Below, one piece after another: positions 49,278 through 59,873 of a DNA stretch of 64,000 bases. This stretch comes from Ignavibacteria bacterium. GTDB lineage: Bacteria; Bacteroidota; Ignavibacteria; Kapaibacteriales; UBA2268. The DNA lies in the NCBI GenBank assembly GCA_026417135.1, contig JAOADV010000009.1:1-64000 (forward strand), written 5' to 3'. A program made the translations under genes and the position numbers. The notes beneath the pieces were generated by a model, which saw nothing but the letters and a program-made list of their open reading frames with translations, searched no databases and had not been told where the DNA came from. How positions within the stretch are numbered: position 1 is the stretch's first letter; every line of letters begins with the position of its first letter.

Positions 49278-50612
49278 ATGAAATCAAAAAAAATTTCCAA
49301 GAATAAACAAACCCAAGAAACAATGTTTGGAACCAACGACTTTCCTTCGTACGAGACAATTATAGAAGAATATGCAAAAGAGTTTGTTAACTATATTCAA
49401 CCAAAGGGTGATACTATCTTTGGTTTTTGGATGCAGACATTAGCCGACTTAGAATTTTTGGATTTAGAGTTACAAGGATTAACACAAGAATATAAAATTG
49501 ACCCAATAAACAGGTCTGTTTTTTTAATCGGCGACGACGAATTTATTAGGTTAAGAGTTGCACATCTTGAAAAAGTGAATGGAAAAGCAACTCTATATAC
49601 TGAACTGGTAGATAAATTTGGAGATACAAACGCATACGCTTTCCATAATCTCTATCCATACAAAGGTAAGTTTTACCCACGAGTTGTAAGAACTTTAATA
49701 AATGCTTTCGAGTTAGATAATTCCTCTCTTCTTTTTGATCCCTTCAACGGTTCAGGAACATCGACTCACGAGGCTTCGCTTATGGGAATTAAAAGTGTAG
49801 GTGTTGATGTAACTCCTATGGGAATTATCCTTTCTGAGCTTAAAAATAATTTACTTTTTATAGATAGAAAAGAGCTTTCATTTACAAACAGCGAATTACT
49901 CGAAATTTTGTACTTGTTAGAAAACAAAAAATGGGACCATAGTAACCCTACAATTTACAAATTAATGTTAGCAATATATTTTGACACTGTTGATGCTTTA
50001 ACCAGAACCTCTCGATATAATGGGAAAGGAAAGTTAGCCCTTTTTATTGAAAAGTTTTTATACATAAAAGACTGTTTTGAAAAAACAATGGAGATTAAGG
50101 AAAAATATGAACTTAAATTTGAACGAGCAAATATTATTGAGGGGGATGTTCTTGAATTGAAAAATATAGAGAAATTCAAAGAAAAATTTGACGCTTGTAT
50201 AACAAGTCCTCCTTATTATTTTTCTATTGATTATGTTGGTAAGGACAAGGTTGCCTATGATTACCTTGGAATAGACGTTAAGAAAATCGAATCGAAATAC
50301 TTAGGAATGAAAAATTGTAAGTATGAAAATAATAACTTTCTTGGATTACCTATAAAGGTTGGAACATATTATGAAGACTTGAAAGAATCAATTAAAAATA
50401 TTTATTGGGCATTAAAATGGGGTGGAAAGTTAGCAATCATAATTGGAGATAGCACAGTCAATGGAAAAAAAATTCCAACAACAATGACAACGAAAAGGTT
50501 TTGTGAGGAAGTTGGCTTTAAGTTCGAAAAATTAATATTTAATCCTTTACTTGGAGCTCGCAACAGAGCCATAAGGGGTGAAAGCGTGATAATTTGTTCT
50601 AAAAGCAAATAA
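49278..50612 (+). CDS. Type II DNA methyltransferase (N4-cytosine/N6-adenine class)
   Basis: 444 residues. A motif X-like segment (NLYPYKGKFYPRVVRTLINAF, about 124-144) comes first, then the AdoMet-binding motif I LLFDPFNGSGTSTHEA at about 151-166, and the catalytic motif IV SPPY at 310-313 (CITSPPYYFSIDYVG). SPPY favours N4-cytosine methylation. About 145 residues between I and IV probably include the target-recognition domain; this order is not the usual beta-class IV-then-I order. It pairs with the next gene, 11 nt downstream, as a type II restriction-modification system. Few TCGA tetranucleotides compared with neighbours suggest recent transfer. Confidence 0.88.
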   Translation: MKSKKISKNKQTQETMFGTNDFPSYETIIEEYAKEFVNYIQPKGDTIFGFWMQTLADLEFLDLELQGLTQEYKIDPINRSVFLIGDDEFIRLRVAHLEKVNGKATLYTELVDKFGDTNAYAFHNLYPYKGKFYPRVVRTLINAFELDNSSLLFDPFNGSGTSTHEASLMGIKSVGVDVTPMGIILSELKNNLLFIDRKELSFTNSELLEILYLLENKKWDHSNPTIYKLMLAIYFDTVDALTRTSRYNGKGKLALFIEKFLYIKDCFEKTMEIKEKYELKFERANIIEGDVLELKNIEKFKEKFDACITSPPYYFSIDYVGKDKVAYDYLGIDVKKIESKYLGMKNCKYENNNFLGLPIKVGTYYEDLKESIKNIYWALKWGGKLAIIIGDSTVNGKKIPTTMTTKRFCEEVGFKFEKLIFNPLLGARNRAIRGESVIICSKSK

Positions 50613-50623
50613 TTTAATTTAAT

Positions 50624-51886
50624 ATGCAGCTTAGAAATCTACTTGTTTGCAAAGAAGCGAAAAACGAAATTGAGCTATTGCTTAAAAAAATTTACCTAAA
50701 AAGAATCAAAGAAATGTTTCTAAGAACTTTAAGTTTAGAATCGATTTTCAATATTTTTGATGAAGTTTTTCACGGTCTTTCTAAGGTCTCTGGTTTGAAC
50801 GAAAGACTTTATAGTTTTTATGAATCTTTAATGACAATAACATCCTATTATCAACATAGTCAAGCTGGGAGAGGTAGTTTGGCTACGAAACTATTAAAGG
50901 AATTAGGAACTTCGGGGAAGATGGATTTCGAACTTTCTTTAACAAAGCTTCCTCAATGGTTGGGTCAATCTGTCGAACTGGTGGAATCAGAATTATCCAA
51001 AGTAAAATTCGATATAGTTAACAAATTCAACGACAACCTTGTTCTTTGCGAACTTAAAATGAAAGTCTATTCTGGATGCACTGCTGGTCGTGTTGAATTA
51101 ATGGAAAAGTTCAACAAATTTACTAAGTTAATTATCGATGAACACTCTCTGAGAAAATGTATAGAAAATGCCTCAATCAAAAACATTTATATGATATGTG
51201 GAATTTTATTTGATATTCATGGGGGTCCGGCAACTACCCAAAAAGACATTGATTGGGGTATTTGTTATAACGGCCTTTTACGAGGGAAGAATGACATAAT
51301 TAGAACTTTGAGTGAAAAAAATATCGATTTTAAAATTAAAGAAGGCGAAATACCCGAGAAAGCATTCGTAATCGAGTATAGACTCAACTCCATAAACGTA
51401 AGTATTACTGCTGGCTATGGAAACGAAGTCATCGTAGGGCTTTTTGGTGGTGCCCAAAAATATAATATTGAGCATTTCAAAGAACTTTTAGAACAAATGT
51501 ACTATGATGATTTATGGTTATCACAAATTATTGCCATAAGCGAGAGAACCATTCTAAATCAAAACTACAAAAAACACAAGATATTTGAGAATTTTTTAAC
51601 CACGATTTTAGATAATCAACAAATAATCTCAGCTATAAGTGAAATTCAATCACATCTTAATCTTGAATCTTTGAAGAATATAGCAAAAAGTATAATTGAA
51701 AATTTGAAACAAAATAAAAAGAACATATTACTTTTTACCCCTACTCCTGCAGAAATTATTTTAAACTCTTTTGCTGAAAACTATAATTTACAAGATTATA
51801 TTGCTGATATTGTTCAGTTTTTGGCTTGCGAAGATATTCGGGAATTTTTGGTTAAACGTTACAGATTAATTCGGGGTAACTATTAA
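50624..51886 (+). CDS. Probable type II restriction endonuclease
   Basis: 420 residues, placed 11 nt after the methyltransferase. A PD-(D/E)xK-like centre can be drawn: Asp130 in VKFDIV and Glu143-x-Lys145 in LCELKMKVYSG, followed by CTAGRVELMEKF. The YSGCTAGR neighbourhood loosely recalls enzymes cutting CCGG-type sites (AgeI/BsaWI-like), but I cannot assign a family or a recognition sequence. The N-terminal half (helical, HSQAGRGSLATKLLKEL) could be part of the recognition region. Operon position is the main evidence for the function. Confidence 0.7.
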   Translation: MQLRNLLVCKEAKNEIELLLKKIYLKRIKEMFLRTLSLESIFNIFDEVFHGLSKVSGLNERLYSFYESLMTITSYYQHSQAGRGSLATKLLKELGTSGKMDFELSLTKLPQWLGQSVELVESELSKVKFDIVNKFNDNLVLCELKMKVYSGCTAGRVELMEKFNKFTKLIIDEHSLRKCIENASIKNIYMICGILFDIHGGPATTQKDIDWGICYNGLLRGKNDIIRTLSEKNIDFKIKEGEIPEKAFVIEYRLNSINVSITAGYGNEVIVGLFGGAQKYNIEHFKELLEQMYYDDLWLSQIIAISERTILNQNYKKHKIFENFLTTILDNQQIISAISEIQSHLNLESLKNIAKSIIENLKQNKKNILLFTPTPAEIILNSFAENYNLQDYIADIVQFLACEDIREFLVKRYRLIRGNY

Positions 51887-52009: not shown

Positions 52010-52456
52010 ATGAAAATTTTGGTTAACAAAAAAGAATATAATTTGAATATCGACCCAGATATGCCTTTGCTTTGGGTTTTGCGTGATATACTTTATTTGA
52101 CTGGAACAAAATACGGATGTGGAATTGGAGTGTGTAAGACTTGCACTGTTTTAATCGACGGAGTTCCAGAACAATCGTGTGTAGTTCCAGTGAGTTACGT
52201 GGAAAACAAGGAAATTACAACTATCGAGGGATTGTCCGCCGATGGCAACCACCCTTTGCAGAAGGCTTGGTTCGAAAAAAGTGTAAGCCAATGTGGTTAT
52301 TGTCAACCCGGATTTATACTGCAAGCAGCATACCTTATTTCGAAGAATCCCAAACCAAGTTTGGACGACATAAATCGTGCTCTTTCCGAACACATTTGTC
52401 GCTGTGGAACATACAGCAAAATACGTGAAGCAATTTTGTTTGCTACAAAGGAGTAA
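52010..52456 (+). CDS. Molybdenum hydroxylase small subunit, two [2Fe-2S] clusters (IorA-like)
   Basis: 148 residues. The N-terminal plant-ferredoxin cluster is bound by Cys37, 42, 45 and 57 (YGCGIGVCKTC then EQSC). The second, helical cluster domain has Cys95-x2-Cys98 (QCGYCQPG) and Cys130-x-Cys132 (HICRCGTY). This matches isoquinoline 1-oxidoreductase alpha subunits and related two-subunit Mo hydroxylases, where it carries electrons from the molybdenum centre. It has no signal peptide of its own, so it would have to cross the membrane bound to the Tat-targeted large subunit 4 nt downstream. The physiological acceptor is unknown. Confidence 0.93.
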   Translation: MKILVNKKEYNLNIDPDMPLLWVLRDILYLTGTKYGCGIGVCKTCTVLIDGVPEQSCVVPVSYVENKEITTIEGLSADGNHPLQKAWFEKSVSQCGYCQPGFILQAAYLISKNPKPSLDDINRALSEHICRCGTYSKIREAILFATKE

Positions 52457-52460
52457 GTTT

Positions 52461-54812
52461 ATGGATGAAAAAGTATTCTTATCGAGGAGAAGATTTATTT
52501 TCGGAACTGCTTTGACACTGACGGGAGTTGTATCTGGATTTATTTTTTCGGATAAAGCATTAGCGGAACTAATAATTTTGGACGAAAAAGAGAAAGTATT
52601 GGGACTTACTCCAAGCATTTGGGTTGAAATAACAAAGGAAAATAAGGTAGTTGTTACAGTTGCGCGTTCCGAAATTGGGCAAGGAGTTCGGACTACATTT
52701 GCTATGATAGTTGCCGAAGAACTCGACGCAGACTGGAATCTTGTTGTTGCAGTCAATGCGGAAGCCGATTCAAAATATGGCAATCAAGCAACTGGCGGTA
52801 GCACAAGCGTACGAAACTTTTGGACGACCTTACGAAGTGCTGGTGCTCAAGCAAGGCAACTTCTCATTAATGCAGCATCTCAAATTTGGGGTATCCCCGC
52901 TGAAAATTGTTACACCTCCAACAGTTTTGTTTACGAGAGAAATGGAACGCGCAAACTTGCATACGCCGAATTAATTGATAAGGCTGTGCAGTTACCAGTT
53001 CCTCCAGCGAATTCAGTTAAACTGAAAAGTGTTTCTGATTTTAAAATATTAGGAAAGCCACAAAAAAATATCGACGAACCATTTTTTGTAACTGGGAAAG
53101 TTACTTTTGGGTCGGACTACCGTGTCGAAGGTATGAAGTATGCAGTTATTCTACGCTGCCCTTATATTGGAGGTTCGTTGAGTAGTTACGACGACACAGA
53201 GGCAAAAAAAATTAAAGGAGTAGTTGGAGTCTATCGTCTATCCGAAGGTATTGCTGTTGTTGCCGATAATTCTTGGCTGGCTTTGAAAGGGCGCGATGCC
53301 TTGAAGGTCAATTGGAATCGTGGACCGAACGCAAATTTAACTACTGACCAAATTTTTGACAAATTCCGTAGTTTGGTCGAAACATTTCCAAATTTATCCA
53401 ACGAAACAGTTAAAGAAATCGAGACTATTTACGAAGTCCCATTCCTTGCCCACTCGACGATGGAACCGATGAGTGCTTTTGCCAATTATAAAGAGGGAAA
53501 ATGTGAAATTTGGGCTGGCACTCAGAATCCACAAAACGCAAGAACAACTGTTGCTTCGGCTCTTGGAATTTCAGAAAATAATGTTAAAGTAAATGTCCTT
53601 CATTCGGGAGGTGGTTTTGGAAGACGGCTCAACAGCGATTTCGTTGTTATCGCAGCAAAGATTGCCAAAGCTTCGGGGTTCCCAGTTTTGTTCTTTTATA
53701 CAAAAGCCGACGATATCAAAAATGATTATTTCCGCCCAGCAAGTCTTCACTCAATTAAGGCTGGTATTAACGCAAACGGCAAACCAACTGGTTTCTTCCA
53801 TAGAGTAATTTCACAAGGTGATGTCTCCTACGTCAATCCACATTATTCATTGCCCGATGTAAGAAACTATACAGCATCCCACAGTTTTGGAGTAAGAACT
53901 GGACCTTGGCGTTCGGTAGATTATACCCAAAACATTTTTGTTATTGAATCGGTAATCGACGAATTGGCACATCTTGCTGGAAAAGACCCTTTTCAATATC
54001 GAATGGATTTAACTAATGACGCTAAATTAAAGAATGTTTTAAGGAAGGTTGCAGAAAATTCAAAATGGGGGACTGAATTACCAAAAGGTTGGGGCAGAGG
54101 TATATCTTCGTTCGTGGGTTACGGGGCATATATAGCCCACGTTGTCGAAGTTTCGGTTTCGAAAGAGGGTTTCTTAAAGATTCAAAAAATATATGCCGTT
54201 GTCGACCCCGGTTTTCCGGTTAATCCAGAAAACATTAAAAATCAAATTATGGGGGCAGGTATCGATGGGCTTTCAACTGCTTTGAACTCTGAAATAACAA
54301 TTCAAAATGGGCAAATTCAACAATCGGGTTTCCACAATTTCCGTTGGCTACGAATAGATGAAGTTCCAGAGTTTGACATAGAGATACTTACAACCTCGGA
54401 CAGACCTTCGGGAATGGGCGAGGTCGGTTTCCCTTCTGTTACGCCCGCCTTGTGTAATGCTATTTTCGATGCAACTGGAATACGAATTCGTAGATTACCA
54501 ATTGGAAAGACCCCCTTGCTTAAAGTCGATGAAAAAGAGAACAAATCCAAAGATTTGGAATTTAATGCTTATCCAAACCCATTCGAAACTAAAGTTACGA
54601 TAAACATAAAGACAAATGATAATAAATCAAGCAATCTCAGCGTGAGAATATTTGATATACTTGGTAAATTGGTGTTCGAATCGAAGCTGAGTTCTGACGG
54701 AACAAGCTACCATACCCAACTCGATTTCGAAAACTTGCCATCTTCCGTTTATTACGTTGTTTGTGAGTTCAACAACCAATTGCATTCTTTTCCAATTTTG
54801 AAAAAGAATTAG
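52461..54812 (+). CDS. Molybdenum hydroxylase large subunit (IorB-like) with Tat signal and T9SS sorting domain
   Basis: 783 residues from the ATG at 52461, behind AAGGAG. The N-terminus has a twin-arginine signal SRRRFIFGTALTLTGVVSGF (Arg9-Arg10). Molybdopterin-binding domains follow: ARSEIGQGVRTTF, LHSGGGFGRRLNSDF, GVRTGPWRSVDYTQN, and the catalytic Glu654 in SGMGEVGFP. The final 85 residues (about 699-783) start with FNAYPNPFETKV and include VRIFDILGKLVFE, a type IX secretion sorting domain not normally present in this enzyme family. The substrate (N-heterocycle, aldehyde or other) cannot be told. No XdhC-like chaperone or cytochrome gene is adjacent. Confidence 0.92.
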   Translation: MDEKVFLSRRRFIFGTALTLTGVVSGFIFSDKALAELIILDEKEKVLGLTPSIWVEITKENKVVVTVARSEIGQGVRTTFAMIVAEELDADWNLVVAVNAEADSKYGNQATGGSTSVRNFWTTLRSAGAQARQLLINAASQIWGIPAENCYTSNSFVYERNGTRKLAYAELIDKAVQLPVPPANSVKLKSVSDFKILGKPQKNIDEPFFVTGKVTFGSDYRVEGMKYAVILRCPYIGGSLSSYDDTEAKKIKGVVGVYRLSEGIAVVADNSWLALKGRDALKVNWNRGPNANLTTDQIFDKFRSLVETFPNLSNETVKEIETIYEVPFLAHSTMEPMSAFANYKEGKCEIWAGTQNPQNARTTVASALGISENNVKVNVLHSGGGFGRRLNSDFVVIAAKIAKASGFPVLFFYTKADDIKNDYFRPASLHSIKAGINANGKPTGFFHRVISQGDVSYVNPHYSLPDVRNYTASHSFGVRTGPWRSVDYTQNIFVIESVIDELAHLAGKDPFQYRMDLTNDAKLKNVLRKVAENSKWGTELPKGWGRGISSFVGYGAYIAHVVEVSVSKEGFLKIQKIYAVVDPGFPVNPENIKNQIMGAGIDGLSTALNSEITIQNGQIQQSGFHNFRWLRIDEVPEFDIEILTTSDRPSGMGEVGFPSVTPALCNAIFDATGIRIRRLPIGKTPLLKVDEKENKSKDLEFNAYPNPFETKVTINIKTNDNKSSNLSVRIFDILGKLVFESKLSSDGTSYHTQLDFENLPSSVYYVVCEFNNQLHSFPILKKN

Positions 54813-55375: not shown

Positions 55376-56521
55376 TTAGAAAAGGCTACATTTGTCGAGT
55401 TTCATTTCGCAACGGTTATAGAAAATAGGGACTTGAAGAGCGCGCGTGGCAATTTCAACGATAAATGCTTTTAATTTTGGACTTTCTATGGTTAGTAACT
55501 GTAATTCGGGGAGTTGACCACAGCTGAAAAGTCTGAATGATGTATTTACAGGCAACTGCATATAGATTGAGAGACGTGAAAACCCAATATCGAGTGGTTG
55601 AAGCATCCAAAGAGCAATCCATCCGTTTACAATTGGGAAGGGGTCGCCTTTTAGCATATGGAACTTTTCGAATCGCTCTTGGAATGCTTTGTAGAAACCT
55701 TCGAGCCTAATCTTTGGCTTTTGTTCTTGTCTGTTTCGGAGCCGTGAACAAAAATAATCTGGCGAACTTCTTAAAATCTCGTGGAAGTATTTGTCGTTTG
55801 TAAGTTTCAAATATTTCGAGAGGTTATGATTGTAATAGGTTTCGTAAGCAATAACAGCGTCGTTTATTAATTTGATATTTATTGGTGCACGCGAAAGGCA
55901 ACATTGAACTTCTTTGTCGCGATAAATTCTATGGTAAGAAAGTCTAACAGTAGAATTTGGATATACATCGTTGATTGCTTGCTCTATTTGAATCGAACCA
56001 TTAGTCATAAAAATCGGTACATCGACGCCTCTTTTTTTAAGCCTTTGCAACAAAGTGTGCCAAAGTTCGTAATCATTATAGTCGGACATTTCGAAACCTA
56101 AAACAACATTTGAAAGGGCATCGATAACCAAAGCAAGATACATTGTGTGGCGGGGATTTTTGGAAATTCCAGCCGAAAAGGTTTTTTCGGCCAAATAAAC
56201 AAGTTTTACATTATGTTTTGGAACGCAAAGGTCCAAATACTCTTCCCAATTTGGACAGCCATCCAAAAATTCACGAACTTTTTTATTAATCCGCAGAGGG
56301 GAACTTTGATACACATTAACAAGACTTCGAAATGTATTTCCAAGAAGGTAATCTTCTGTTAAATTAGCTATGTCGGTTTTAATTGTTTCTGCTTTTTCTT
56401 TGACCCAAGTTCTTCCGCAAATTCTACAACGAAACCTTCGGTTACCAGTTGTTGTCTTTCCGTGCCGAATTACTTTGTTGCTTCCACAATATATGCAAGT
56501 TGTTATTTCATTCAATTCCAT
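55376..56521 (-). CDS. Transposase-like protein with zinc ribbon, probably inactive
   Basis: 381 residues. An InsA-like zinc ribbon with Cys9, Cys12, Cys32 and Cys35 (TCIYCGSNK and FRCRICGRTW) leads into an IS1/MULE-like region (YLALVIDALSNVVLGFEMSDYNDYELWHTLL). The place where such transposases carry the first catalytic Asp reads VYLAEKTF, and the second (usually an Asp-Gly) reads FMTNGS at Asn174. So at least one, perhaps both, catalytic acids are missing. The frame is intact with no stop. No terminal inverted repeats were found, so a complete insertion sequence is not supported. It may be a domesticated DNA-binding protein. Confidence 0.7.
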   Translation of the reverse strand: MELNEITTCIYCGSNKVIRHGKTTTGNRRFRCRICGRTWVKEKAETIKTDIANLTEDYLLGNTFRSLVNVYQSSPLRINKKVREFLDGCPNWEEYLDLCVPKHNVKLVYLAEKTFSAGISKNPRHTMYLALVIDALSNVVLGFEMSDYNDYELWHTLLQRLKKRGVDVPIFMTNGSIQIEQAINDVYPNSTVRLSYHRIYRDKEVQCCLSRAPINIKLINDAVIAYETYYNHNLSKYLKLTNDKYFHEILRSSPDYFCSRLRNRQEQKPKIRLEGFYKAFQERFEKFHMLKGDPFPIVNGWIALWMLQPLDIGFSRLSIYMQLPVNTSFRLFSCGQLPELQLLTIESPKLKAFIVEIATRALQVPIFYNRCEMKLDKCSLF

Positions 56522-56798
56522 AAATCTTTAAAAATTAAATAAACTAAATTAACAAACAACATTTAAATTACAAAGTTATTTTTTTTTCGAGTTTCGTTTT
56601 TTTATCTCAGAATAATACATTTTACTAAGAAATCGAACTTTTTAATTTTTTTAAATTTCGAAATCCAGTTACAATCGATTGCTTATAAATGTGATTGATG
56701 TGTTAAGTTTATTTTTCAAAAAACGAAAAATTTCTTCTTACTTTAGTGTAAATTTTTGTAATTTTATTTTGAGATTTTTTTTTCTTTGGAGGAAATAT

Positions 56799-59700
56799 AT
56801 GAAACAAGTAGCTAAGCTTTTTTGCTTCTATTCTATGTTGACTTTTTTGTTAGTGTTGCCATTATTTTCCCAAATAGTAGATAGTCGGGGGAAAGATTTC
56901 TGGCTCACTTTTTTACCAAACTATCACAATTATAAATATTCAGTAAACGAACAGCTTCGTCGAAGTGATTCTATATATATTTTTATTTCGTCAGATAAAC
57001 CCACAACAGGCAAAATTGAATTTTATGACATCAATGGTAATTTTAACTTTGTAAATTTTTCGATTACCGACCCAAACCAAATCTATGTTTTTAAAAGAGC
57101 ATTTAACGATTTCGAGCTCCTTGGTTTCAACGATATGGGAAACGAGTGGCAAAGGAATATGTGCGAAATTCCGGTAAAGTTATCTTTCCATATTACCTCC
57201 GAAGAATTAATTAACGTTTACGCACATAGCCAAGGCAACAAGTCCAGCGATGCATTTCTTGTTTTACCCACAACATCCCTTGGAAAAGAATATCTTGTTC
57301 TATCCTACAAGAGCGACGGTTACTTCCTTTCTTTATCTGGTAGAACACCTTCACAATTTGCCATCGTCGCAACTGAAAATAATACAGAAGTTGTTATTTA
57401 TCCATCTGGTCCAACTTATGTGAATAGGAGTGAGCCACAAGTAGTCCCGCTGAATAAAGGGGAAGTCTATTTGGTTCAAGCTTTAATCAGTGAAAATAAT
57501 CCACTAAATGATTTGACTGGGACATATATCACTGCAAATAAACCTATTGCTGTCTTTGCTGGGCATCAAAGAGCGACAGTTCCAGTTGAGGCATTTCGTG
57601 GGACATCTTCACCTTCGCGGGACTTTCTTTGCGAACAGATTCCTCCAATCCAAGCTTGGGGCAGAAATGCTTTTATTGTTCCGCTCTCGCAACCATTTTT
57701 TATTACAAATCGTGGTCAAGATATATTCCGAATACTTGCAGCGAACGACTCGACTGTTGTTTACATAAATGGTTCTTTCCTTGCAACGCTCAATCGAGGA
57801 CAATATTACGAAGGTTACTTAACCCAAGCTGCAACTATTACAGCGACTGGAGCAATTCTTGTTGGGGTATATAAAAAGACCTCGAACGATGCTGGCGCAA
57901 GCAATATCAGCGACCCATTTATGATGATTATTCCACCAGCTGAACAATTCATTGATAGTTGCAAATTGATAAATATACAAGCCTACGAGTTGGAAGAAAA
58001 TTTGCAATACCAAAAAGTTTATCAAGAACATTTTATTACCATTGTGGTTCCAGTCGATGCAGTAGGCGAAACTAAAATTGATGATGTTGTCGTTCCTTCG
58101 AGCTACTTCCGAGAAATTTCTGGTTCAAAGTATTACTATGCTCACGTTAAAGTTAACGAAGGGAAGCACTCAGTTCAATCGAATAAGCCAATTGGAATAT
58201 TTGCGTATGGATATGGACCTGCAAATTCTTATGGATATATCGGAGGAATGTTTTTTGCTGGAAAAGACTGGAAAGCCCCCGAGTTGGAGCTTTCCTCCGA
58301 TTGTTTTACCGATACGTATCATATCAATGACGAAGGTGATTTTTCCTCTGGTATCGATACCGTCTTCTTCGACCCGTATTATTTAAGAAATGTTGAATAT
58401 GTCCCCGACAAAAACTTCAAAAAATACAACCGTCGGGCTACAATTCAATTTAAACTTAGCAATCCTTACCAAGATGGTTCCTATAAGTTCTCTGTTCGAG
58501 ATTCCGCTGGAAACGTTGTTACTCGCGAAAAAGAAATTTATGGTTTCACCATTCGGCATTTTGTTGGTCCTGTTAACAACTATCAATGGACTTTTTTCAG
58601 AGGCAAAATACAACTTCCATTTAAGTCTGGATTGAGAATCGAAAATTTTGGGAAAAGTGATGTTGAAATAACAAAATTTAGAGTAGTAAGTAAATCAACT
58701 GTAAATCTTTTAACTCCATTACCCAAGATTGTTAAATCGAAATCGACTGATGTATTTGAAATTGAGATTACATATATTCCCGAAGGCACCGACACTATAT
58801 ATTTCGACTTTGGGAACGAATGTATCTGGGCAAAGTGTGTAGCTTACGTTATAACCCCTTCCGATTGCGATATCACTGAATTCGAGTATAAAGATTTTGA
58901 AAATCCTTTGAAGTTGAATTTCGTAGGAAATGCAAACAAAGTAGAAAAATATATCCAGCTTACCCCACCAGCTGTTAATCGTGCTGGGGCTGTATGGTAT
59001 AGGGATTTGGTTCCGGTGGTTTCTGGTTTTAAGACAGAATTTAGTTTTAGGGTCCGCGAAGGTTCTAATAATAACTGTGAAGATGGTTCAACTCCAGGTG
59101 CCGATGGTTTAGCCTTCGTTGTTCAAAACTTTATGCCAGTCGCTGTTGGGAACTATGGTGGAGGAATTGGGTATAGCGGGTTACCAAATTCGGTAGCAAT
59201 CGAGTTCGACTTGTTCTCGAACGATTCCAATCAAATTGAAAACTTTTTCGACCCAAATGGCAACCATATTGCTGTTCAATCAAATGGAAGAAGTGAAAAT
59301 TCTCCGAAACATCAACCCCAATTTACTCTCGGTATGAATACTAAGATTATTGTGCTAAAAACCGATGGAACACCTTATTTCGCCAAAATTATTTATGATG
59401 AACCCAAAAAAGTTTTAGAAATTTTCCTCGATACTACAAAAAATTTCAAGTCTCCCGCCTTAACCTTGACCAATTTCGACTTATCGAAACTTATAGGATT
59501 GGAACGTGGCTACCGCGCTTACGTTGGATTTACTTCTGCAACTGGCTGCGCCTATCAGAGCCACGAATTGTTATCTTGGCATTTTTGCCCAACTCCGCCA
59601 GACCCGACCCGAAATGTTGATGATTCACCTATTAATTTCGAAGAACTTGTCTATCCCAATCCAATCGAAGACTTTGCCTATATTAACTTGTCGAACGACT

Positions 59701-59873
59701 TGTTCCCGGTAAATCTCAGGATTGTAAATCTTCTTGGCGAGACACTTTTCGTTGGAGAACACTTTTCGTCCGATATCCCACTCGATTTTCGAAACATTCC
59801 TATTGGAGCATACATAGTCGAGATTCAAAGCAAGAAAACCAAGTATTTCAAGATTGTAACGAAGATTAGATAG
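56799..59873 (+). CDS. Secreted IgGFc-binding/L-type lectin protein with T9SS sorting domain
   Basis: 1024 residues from the ATG at 56799, which follows GGAGGA and starts the signal peptide (VAKLFCFYSMLTFLLVLPLFS). The N-terminal half (about 25-480) has the IgGFc-binding N-terminal pattern: RGKDFWLTFLPNYH, VYAHSQGNKSSDAFLVLP, PIAVFAGHQRATVP, VYINGSF and PIGIFAYGYG. A middle beta-rich part follows (about 500-680), then an L-type lectin-like domain (about 690-930) with GADGLAFVVQN and GGGIGYSGLPNSVAIEFDLF. The end (about 940-1024, VYPNPIEDFAYI and LRIVNLLGETLFVG) is a T9SS sorting domain. It is probably a surface adhesin or matrix protein. A sensor kinase gene follows 27 nt later. Confidence 0.88.
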   Translation: MKQVAKLFCFYSMLTFLLVLPLFSQIVDSRGKDFWLTFLPNYHNYKYSVNEQLRRSDSIYIFISSDKPTTGKIEFYDINGNFNFVNFSITDPNQIYVFKRAFNDFELLGFNDMGNEWQRNMCEIPVKLSFHITSEELINVYAHSQGNKSSDAFLVLPTTSLGKEYLVLSYKSDGYFLSLSGRTPSQFAIVATENNTEVVIYPSGPTYVNRSEPQVVPLNKGEVYLVQALISENNPLNDLTGTYITANKPIAVFAGHQRATVPVEAFRGTSSPSRDFLCEQIPPIQAWGRNAFIVPLSQPFFITNRGQDIFRILAANDSTVVYINGSFLATLNRGQYYEGYLTQAATITATGAILVGVYKKTSNDAGASNISDPFMMIIPPAEQFIDSCKLINIQAYELEENLQYQKVYQEHFITIVVPVDAVGETKIDDVVVPSSYFREISGSKYYYAHVKVNEGKHSVQSNKPIGIFAYGYGPANSYGYIGGMFFAGKDWKAPELELSSDCFTDTYHINDEGDFSSGIDTVFFDPYYLRNVEYVPDKNFKKYNRRATIQFKLSNPYQDGSYKFSVRDSAGNVVTREKEIYGFTIRHFVGPVNNYQWTFFRGKIQLPFKSGLRIENFGKSDVEITKFRVVSKSTVNLLTPLPKIVKSKSTDVFEIEITYIPEGTDTIYFDFGNECIWAKCVAYVITPSDCDITEFEYKDFENPLKLNFVGNANKVEKYIQLTPPAVNRAGAVWYRDLVPVVSGFKTEFSFRVREGSNNNCEDGSTPGADGLAFVVQNFMPVAVGNYGGGIGYSGLPNSVAIEFDLFSNDSNQIENFFDPNGNHIAVQSNGRSENSPKHQPQFTLGMNTKIIVLKTDGTPYFAKIIYDEPKKVLEIFLDTTKNFKSPALTLTNFDLSKLIGLERGYRAYVGFTSATGCAYQSHELLSWHFCPTPPDPTRNVDDSPINFEELVYPNPIEDFAYINLSNDLFPVNLRIVNLLGETLFVGEHFSSDIPLDFRNIPIGAYIVEIQSKKTKYFKIVTKIR

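Follow-up and report, generated by a model that had tools for sequence, protein, structure and literature searches.

This locus raises the question of how a molybdenum hydroxylase could come to carry a twin-arginine (Tat) signal and a T9SS sorting domain on the same polypeptide, and where such an enzyme would act. The window, i.e., the whole stretch of 64,000 nucleotides that was analysed, belongs to a genome of 2.24 Mb in 63 contigs that is 98% complete (G000). The first-pass annotation had taken it that T9SS clients normally reach the periplasm by Sec, and the literature says the same. Passages of the 2023 review PMC10202324 give all T9SS effectors a Sec-dependent signal and have them exported unfolded; those of PMC5445135 present T9SS cargo as Sec-exported, naming Tat among the periplasm routes of two-step systems generally; and those of PMC9251779 send cargo through Sec, with the T9SS moving folded proteins across the outer membrane. 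In these passages of the three reviews, the cargos are described as folding only in the periplasm. Sections of other papers indicate that some secretion systems, among which the T2SS is named, operate with Sec or Tat (PMC9127263), and that T9SS cargo binds inside the SprA pore by its sorting domain (PMC10994853). A pairing of Tat with the T9SS is not described in the available text of the three reviews, the words twin-arginine, molybd- and Rieske are absent from the main text of PMC11205867 as available, and an open-licence literature search returned, among titles and abstract openings, no Tat-exported T9SS cargo and no T9SS-tailed molybdenum or Rieske enzyme.

TABLE 1 Coordinates in the window of the two subunit genes and of the features of the large subunit
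Feature	Coordinates	Strand	Evidence
[2Fe-2S] small subunit, 148 aa, Fer2 and Fer2_2, eight cluster cysteines, without export signal	52010..52456	+	Pfam, inspection
Large subunit of the Mo hydroxylase, 783 aa, bearing the Tat signal and the T9SS type A sorting domain	52461..54812	+	ORF 52461-54809 plus stop
Twin-arginine signal, residues 1-35; SRRRFIF at 52482-52502	52461..52565	+	R9, R10 and F12 invariant in 23/23
MoCoBD_2, best stretch, residues 51-209	52611..53087	+	Pfam
MoCoBD_1 stretch, residues 320-515, with GGGFG and Arg484	53418..54005	+	Pfam, alignment
Glu654 codon, invariant GxGE motif, presumed active-site Glu	54420..54422	+	Alignment
T9SS type A C-terminal sorting domain, residues 704-783	54570..54809	+	Pfam, TIGR04183, model strands 699-781

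The large subunit belongs to a two-subunit molybdenum hydroxylase of the isoquinoline-oxidoreductase/Gluconobacter aldehyde-dehydrogenase type. Both xanthine-oxidase superfamily domains were found by Pfam, MoCoBD_2 (PF20256) with 109 bits and MoCoBD_1 (PF02738) with 101 bits, the latter being the single MoCoBD_1 match of the genome. E654, GGxFG, R484 and Q595 are invariant in all 23 aligned large subunits, so that the full molybdopterin architecture read at first, Glu654 included, was borne out. By family, Glu654 would be catalytic and the other three would be molybdenum cofactor (Moco) contacts. None of the enzyme-specific NCBIfam models among those listed for the large subunit reached its cut-off, and the curated equivalogs PaoC, XdhA, CO dehydrogenase and 4-hydroxybenzoyl-CoA reductase were missed widely (e.g., 151.9 against 994.55 and 135.8 against 1180).

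The C-terminal sorting domain, for which an HMM check had been proposed, scored 37.7 bits with TIGR04183 (NCBIfam; cut-off 23) and 48.1 bits with Por_Secre_tail (PF18962; Pfam, residues 704 to 773, cut-off 27). Among the 75 TIGR04183 matches of its genome it ranks fourth. The type B model TIGR04131 reached only 15 bits, below its cut-off of 35; type B is therefore ruled out, and the domain is assigned to type A. The predicted model of the large subunit (mean pLDDT 82.5, pTM 0.84) has seven beta strands at residues 699 to 781, following a low-confidence linker at residues 691 to 694. Solved T9SS sorting domains have seven strands, according to a passage of PMC11285876.

At the opposite end, the first-pass reading of SRRRFIF followed by a hydrophobic segment was confirmed: S8-R9-R10-R11-F12-I13-F14 leads into hydrophobic residues and then an ALA site, the last position of which is residue 35. 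The S/T-R-R-x-F motif and the moderately hydrophobic h-region are features of Tat substrates, and R9, R10 and F12 did not vary in the alignment. The Kyte-Doolittle maximum of the h-region is 1.92, versus a median of 2.52 for 66 T9SS-tailed proteins of the same genome. Each of the latter values is the highest obtained over several start codons, and this makes the difference larger. By inspection, most tailed proteins of the genome have Sec-like signals, as against the RR signal of the large subunit, and most of the tailless homologues read also start with RR. The Tat signal HMMs were less responsive: TIGR01409 matched 6 of the 23 molybdenum enzymes at E<=1 and PF10518 2 of the 23 at E<=0.001, with no match to either on the large subunit itself. 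Overall, the presence of two genuine and conserved export signals on one molybdenum hydroxylase is well supported.

The iron-sulfur (FeS) subunit ends four bases before the start codon of the large subunit and, as claimed from the outset, has no signal of its own. The same kind of FeS subunit, with its cysteines kept by inspection, occurs at 22 of the 25 enzyme loci of the order; at the other three (G283, G467 and G476) it was not found within the stored flanks. In 17 of these 22 loci no more than 50 bases separate its end from the large subunit, and in G192 an extra gene stands between the two. Since the adjoining FeS subunit lacks a signal, it likely hitchhikes with the large subunit.

No cytochrome was seen in the ORFs that flank the operon in the window. 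Upstream, at 49278-51886, come a DNA methyltransferase and, after it, a protein of 420 aa to which no Pfam family was assigned at E<=0.001; the two may be a restriction-modification pair. Downstream, a transposase-like ORF (55376-56521; InsA zinc ribbon and Mutator-type core), around which an examination of inverted repeats found no clear terminal repeats, separates the operon from the next T9SS gene (56679-59873), whose tailed product has IgGFc-binding and legume-lectin domains. The tRNAs of the window were examined and gave nothing telling.

To what extent the two signals travel together was seen from the distribution of the enzyme. A homologue is present at E<=1e-60 in 25 of 123 genomes of the order, a weaker one of G341 (1.1e-48) falling below this threshold, and the best match per genome has a sorting-domain tail in 17 of the 25, spread over three families: f1 (G000, G450, G357, G448, G422, G423, G444, G457, G428, G420, G435, G160 and G438), f2 (G192, G475 and G476) and f4 (G212). 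The tail of G438 is known solely from the match range in the order search. Since the fusion is found in 17 genomes, it is real, and an assembly join is ruled out. Neither outcome that would have counted against the first-pass claim, a failing HMM or a fusion missing from relatives, was thus obtained. The remaining eight enzymes are tailless, namely G385 and G196 of f1, where no tail remnant was found downstream of the enzyme, and six of f5. The enzymes of G438 and G476 are split across two contigs and were left out of the alignment and tree, hence the 23 rows. The 15 tailed proteins in a single frame all have RR as well; 15 of the rows match TIGR04183 (E<=1) and 14 match PF18962 (E<=0.001), these tallies being given without row names; the tail is thus not a product of chance. 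A search for other tailed homologues, also proposed at first, found none beyond these: among 103 further loci, comprising 80 from named genomes (up to 42% identity) and 23 of the phylum (L034 being the f5 genome G283 again), no C-terminal extension of at least 40 residues was seen, the longest having 33. In the phylum search, 87 of 395 genomes have a homologue at E<=1e-30, and the 30 loci read from it include 5 tailed ones.

A tree of 41 core rows unites the 15 single-frame tailed proteins with G385 and G196 in one clade of 100/100 support. This topology gives one gain of the sorting domain, in an ancestor within one order, presumably of the Bacteroidota, and one loss. The same tree also joins a homologue found in an Ignavibacteriaceae genome to the row of a genome from the window's class. 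Because two relatives have lost the tail, surface export would not be indispensable. The enzyme core is under purifying selection, with omega of 0.04 (G422/G423, dS 1.9, near saturation) and 0.09 (G444/G457, dS 0.8) in the two of six pairs where it could be computed; in the four pairs from the genus of G000, dS was saturated. Tail omega is 0.08 to 0.22 in the four of six pairs with computable dS, and tail pN exceeds core pN in five of the six, G000/G450 showing the reverse. That last pair differs along the gene: in 100-base windows, identity is 79 to 91% over the 3' end including the tail (about 3145-3845 in L006; L125, about 54105-54805 in the window) and 58 to 81% over the remainder of the operon. 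Given this higher identity and a tail dS of 0.61, far below the saturated core dS, recombination at the 3' end of the gene is possible.

Components of both routes are encoded in the genome. TatC was found with 187.5 bits (cut-off 132.7), with no TatA-like ORF beside tatC, and PorU with 803 bits; by PorU and the 75 TIGR04183 matches, a T9SS is present. Besides the full PorU on C9, a frame of 1784 aa on another contig (G000:C8:32759-36478; L004, L005) gives two partial PorU matches of 102 and 83 bits, below cut-off, and is perhaps a PorU-like paralogue. The tailed genes of the genome were fetched in 70 of 75 cases, the five left out being the large subunit, the 56679-59873 protein, PorU and two below cut-off, and 66 of the 70 have a frame with an upstream stop. 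No CxxCH motif was found in the 70 tailed frames. An RR-x-hydrophobic pattern within the first 90 codons occurs in seven of them. L209 (MIRRMIKSILLLLV) is ambiguous and looks like Sec; by inspection, one of the seven, L166, has a Tat-like setting.

This protein (also L223; G000:C22:162125-162889; N-terminus MIDRRDILKLLF) combines a Rieske domain (32.3 bits) with a Por_Secre_tail (35.8 bits). It represents a second, unrelated family in the same genome with the same Tat-plus-T9SS architecture, which is new here. Relatives were detected in 38 of the 123 genomes of the order at E<=1e-8, and the best 30 of these loci, from families f1, f2, f5, f7, f56 and f58, were examined. RR and the four cluster ligands (C-x-H, C-x-x-H) are invariant in all 30, TIGR04183 matches all 30 at E<=1, and at E<=0.01 the Pfam tail is found in 29 and Rieske PF00355 in 28; TIGR01409 matches 7 at E<=1 and PF10518 one at E<=0.01. 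With the predicted model (pLDDT 81.4, pTM 0.52), VIA-align gave the Rieske protein 8hn2_A as best match (Z 13.9, 3.1 A over 108 residues), followed by arsenite oxidase small subunits with Z of 12.2 to 12.7, in rows that mostly cover residues 36 to 157 and so barely compare the tail. The neighbours in the genome of the window (operon in L221) are two CCP_MauG-domain proteins, a second RR-Rieske protein in which no tail was found, and a small protein that has a CGLSYCH motif but matches no Pfam family.

The best 30 Rieske loci fall in 11 of the 17 genomes with a tailed molybdenum enzyme and in 19 of the 106 others (Fisher p 1.6e-4, confounded by kinship), the match in G212 (1.8e-10) being weaker and outside the 30; co-occurrence does not support the Rieske protein as an obligate partner of the enzyme. 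The title of PMC3623810 links the Rieske protein PetA with the impaired growth of Shewanella tat mutants.

The supply of Moco is less straightforward. Profile searches of the genome of the window gave no match to Mob_synth_C, moaA, moaC, moeA or XdhC (XdhC_C). Thirty genomes were tested for Moco genes: all 25 of the order that bear the enzyme, two of the class (G236 and G004), and three that have no enzyme at the threshold used (G449, G109 and G314). Over cut-off were moaA in 16, MoeA_N in 18 and MoaC in 17, the sub-cut-off moaA matches of most genomes being taken as other radical-SAM proteins. In 10 of the 25 enzyme-bearing genomes, from five genera, moaA, moaC and moeA are all absent (G000, G448, G450, G357, G422, G423, G457, G385, G196 and the 85% complete G444). 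The same is true of G109 and G314, while G449 has all three; the moaA of G192 is in two pieces, below cut-off (259 bits), and G476 (82% complete) has MoeA only. In G420 and, by ORF reading, in G192, both of which have Moco genes, the enzyme has XdhC and a MobA-like gene as neighbours.

In the congeneric G449, the genes moaA-moaC-MOSC-moeA-mobA form a run beside those for a T9SS-type protein, tilS, hpt and ribE (L253, G449:C4; mobA, tilS, hpt and ribE were named by our own reading). In the genome of the window, these last four genes keep their order on a single contig (L263, G000:C33; 67, 46, 55 and 55% identity), with other genes in the place expected for the run, i.e., an empty site. This empty site and the fact that G448 is a single contig make it unlikely that the Moco genes were missed merely through an assembly gap or a plasmid. 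G449 itself has its Moco genes twice, on C4 and C24, with equal or nearly equal HMM scores, and its listed contamination is 5%. In the core tree the Moco-less rows do not form one clade, G428, which bears Moco genes, falling among them; several losses or a regain are therefore implied. A simple link by which the tail would serve to pick up Moco outside the cell was ruled out, since Moco genes occur in 9 of the 17 tailed genomes (in G476 only moeA) and the tail is missing from 2 of the 10 Moco-less genomes, the other 8 having it.

Taken together, these results make it probable that a folded molybdenum enzyme is exported with its FeS partner by Tat and then by the T9SS, and acts at the cell surface. 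Both subunits would fold and receive their cofactors while still in the cytoplasm, and the signal-less FeS subunit would hitchhike through Tat with the large subunit. The sorting domain would then hand the folded complex to the T9SS translocon, for which such a complex might be too large, and PorU would cut the domain off, leaving the enzyme anchored on the cell surface or released from it, where it would oxidise an extracellular substrate, aldehyde-like by family. We infer every transport step, the co-export of the FeS subunit, the place, the substrate and the electron acceptor from sequence. The first-pass interpretation is thus supported in part, namely as regards the pairing of Tat and T9SS, for which the two conserved signals, TatC, PorU and the second redox family speak; its "cofactor-loaded" enzyme sits less easily with a genome that lacks moaA, moaC and moeA.

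That absence is one of the observations that would fit another route, in which Sec reads the RR signal and moves the large subunit unfolded, alone and as an apoprotein, the T9SS then exports it as it does other cargo, and the FeS subunit stays behind. The Sec signals ascribed to all T9SS effectors in passages of PMC10202324 and the small number of family members matched by Tat HMMs point the same way. Such a route is nevertheless rather unlikely: it leaves the invariance of R9, R10 and F12, the low hydrophobicity of the h-region, the RR start of most tailless homologues read and the same signal pair on the Rieske protein to be accounted for, as well as the conservation of Moco-site residues and FeS-subunit cysteines. 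Tat export of a folded protein followed by T9SS export would be the simplest account, and the molybdenum and Rieske families together favour a route from Tat to the T9SS for redox proteins that bear cofactors. That the sorting domain could be a decaying or non-functional appendage of an enzyme that is periplasmic, like its tailless relatives, is suggested by the loss of the tail in G385 and G196 and by its higher pN in all pairs but G000/G450. With a tail that is kept in 17 genomes of three families, under low omega in the pairs with computable dS, and that scores near the top of its own genome, we consider this distinctly improbable.

For the Moco-less genomes, the accounts that remain are scavenging, an unfamiliar synthesis route, an extrachromosomal cluster or a function free of Moco. 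Under the last of these, the protein would have given up Moco for a non-redox surface role, as the 10 of 25 enzyme-bearing genomes without moaA, moaC and moeA, and the failure to find XdhC in the genome of the window, might suggest. Because the active site is conserved, this is disfavoured, and we hold it to be unlikely: 66 core positions, including GGxFG, R484, Q595, G653 and E654, are invariant across the 10 Moco-less and 13 Moco-bearing rows, and although 16 of the 82 positions invariant in the Moco-bearing rows vary in the Moco-less ones, none of these is at the named residues. The fuller proposal, that a tandem Tat-to-T9SS route for prefolded redox proteins is combined with Moco from other organisms charging the enzyme in the ten Moco-less genomes, is tentative and, on the present sequences, doubtful. 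If it were true, both Rieske proteins and molybdenum hydroxylases, the latter together with a hitchhiking FeS subunit, would cross both membranes folded, and the charging of a surface or periplasmic molybdenum enzyme with foreign Moco in ten genomes of five genera would amount to bacterial cofactor scavenging.

A Tat-fed T9SS would place enzymes with cofactors inserted in the cytoplasm on the bacterial surface, which would open extracellular redox chemistry by means other than outer-membrane cytochromes. It would also test whether folded cargo, hetero-oligomers included, can pass the T9SS translocon. The Moco-less genomes, for their part, offer a lineage for the study of the orphan molybdoprotein state treated in sections of PMC6147048.

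Among known systems, the membrane-bound aldehyde dehydrogenase of Gluconobacter oxydans is the closest. It has a cytochrome c subunit, for which there is no counterpart among the ORFs beside this operon. Its large subunit (8gy3 chain C) is the best PDB match in sequence (E 2.8e-79) and, by Foldseek, in fold (TM 0.72 over the query, 28% identity), the matches listed being molybdenum enzymes. The aligned N-terminus includes a twin-arginine start, but the alignment has no T9SS domain. The periplasmic aldehyde oxidoreductase PaoABC of E. coli (5g5g/5g5h), which has an FAD subunit, is of the same superfamily, although the NCBIfam PaoC model gives this large subunit 136 bits against a cut-off of 1180. 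According to a passage of PMC4273604, it is exported through Tat by hitchhiking of signal-less subunits; there, however, the signal is on PaoA and the enzyme stays in the periplasm.

Orphan molybdoproteins are defined, in the available part of PMC6147048, as Moco enzymes of organisms whose genome lacks the full Moco pathway, with pseudogenes, missing sequence, unknown synthesis genes and Mo-independent forms as tentative causes. The ten genomes found here likewise hold a xanthine-oxidase-family enzyme without moaA, moaC and moeA, but in this case the state recurs in five genera, a single-contig genome included, and the genome of the window has an empty site where a congeneric genome has its Moco cluster. 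With T9SS type A cargo such as RgpB, finally, the enzyme has in common a C-terminal TIGR04183/PF18962 domain, with seven beta strands predicted here; whereas that cargo is exported by Sec according to passages of the reviews, the enzyme described here bears an RR signal.
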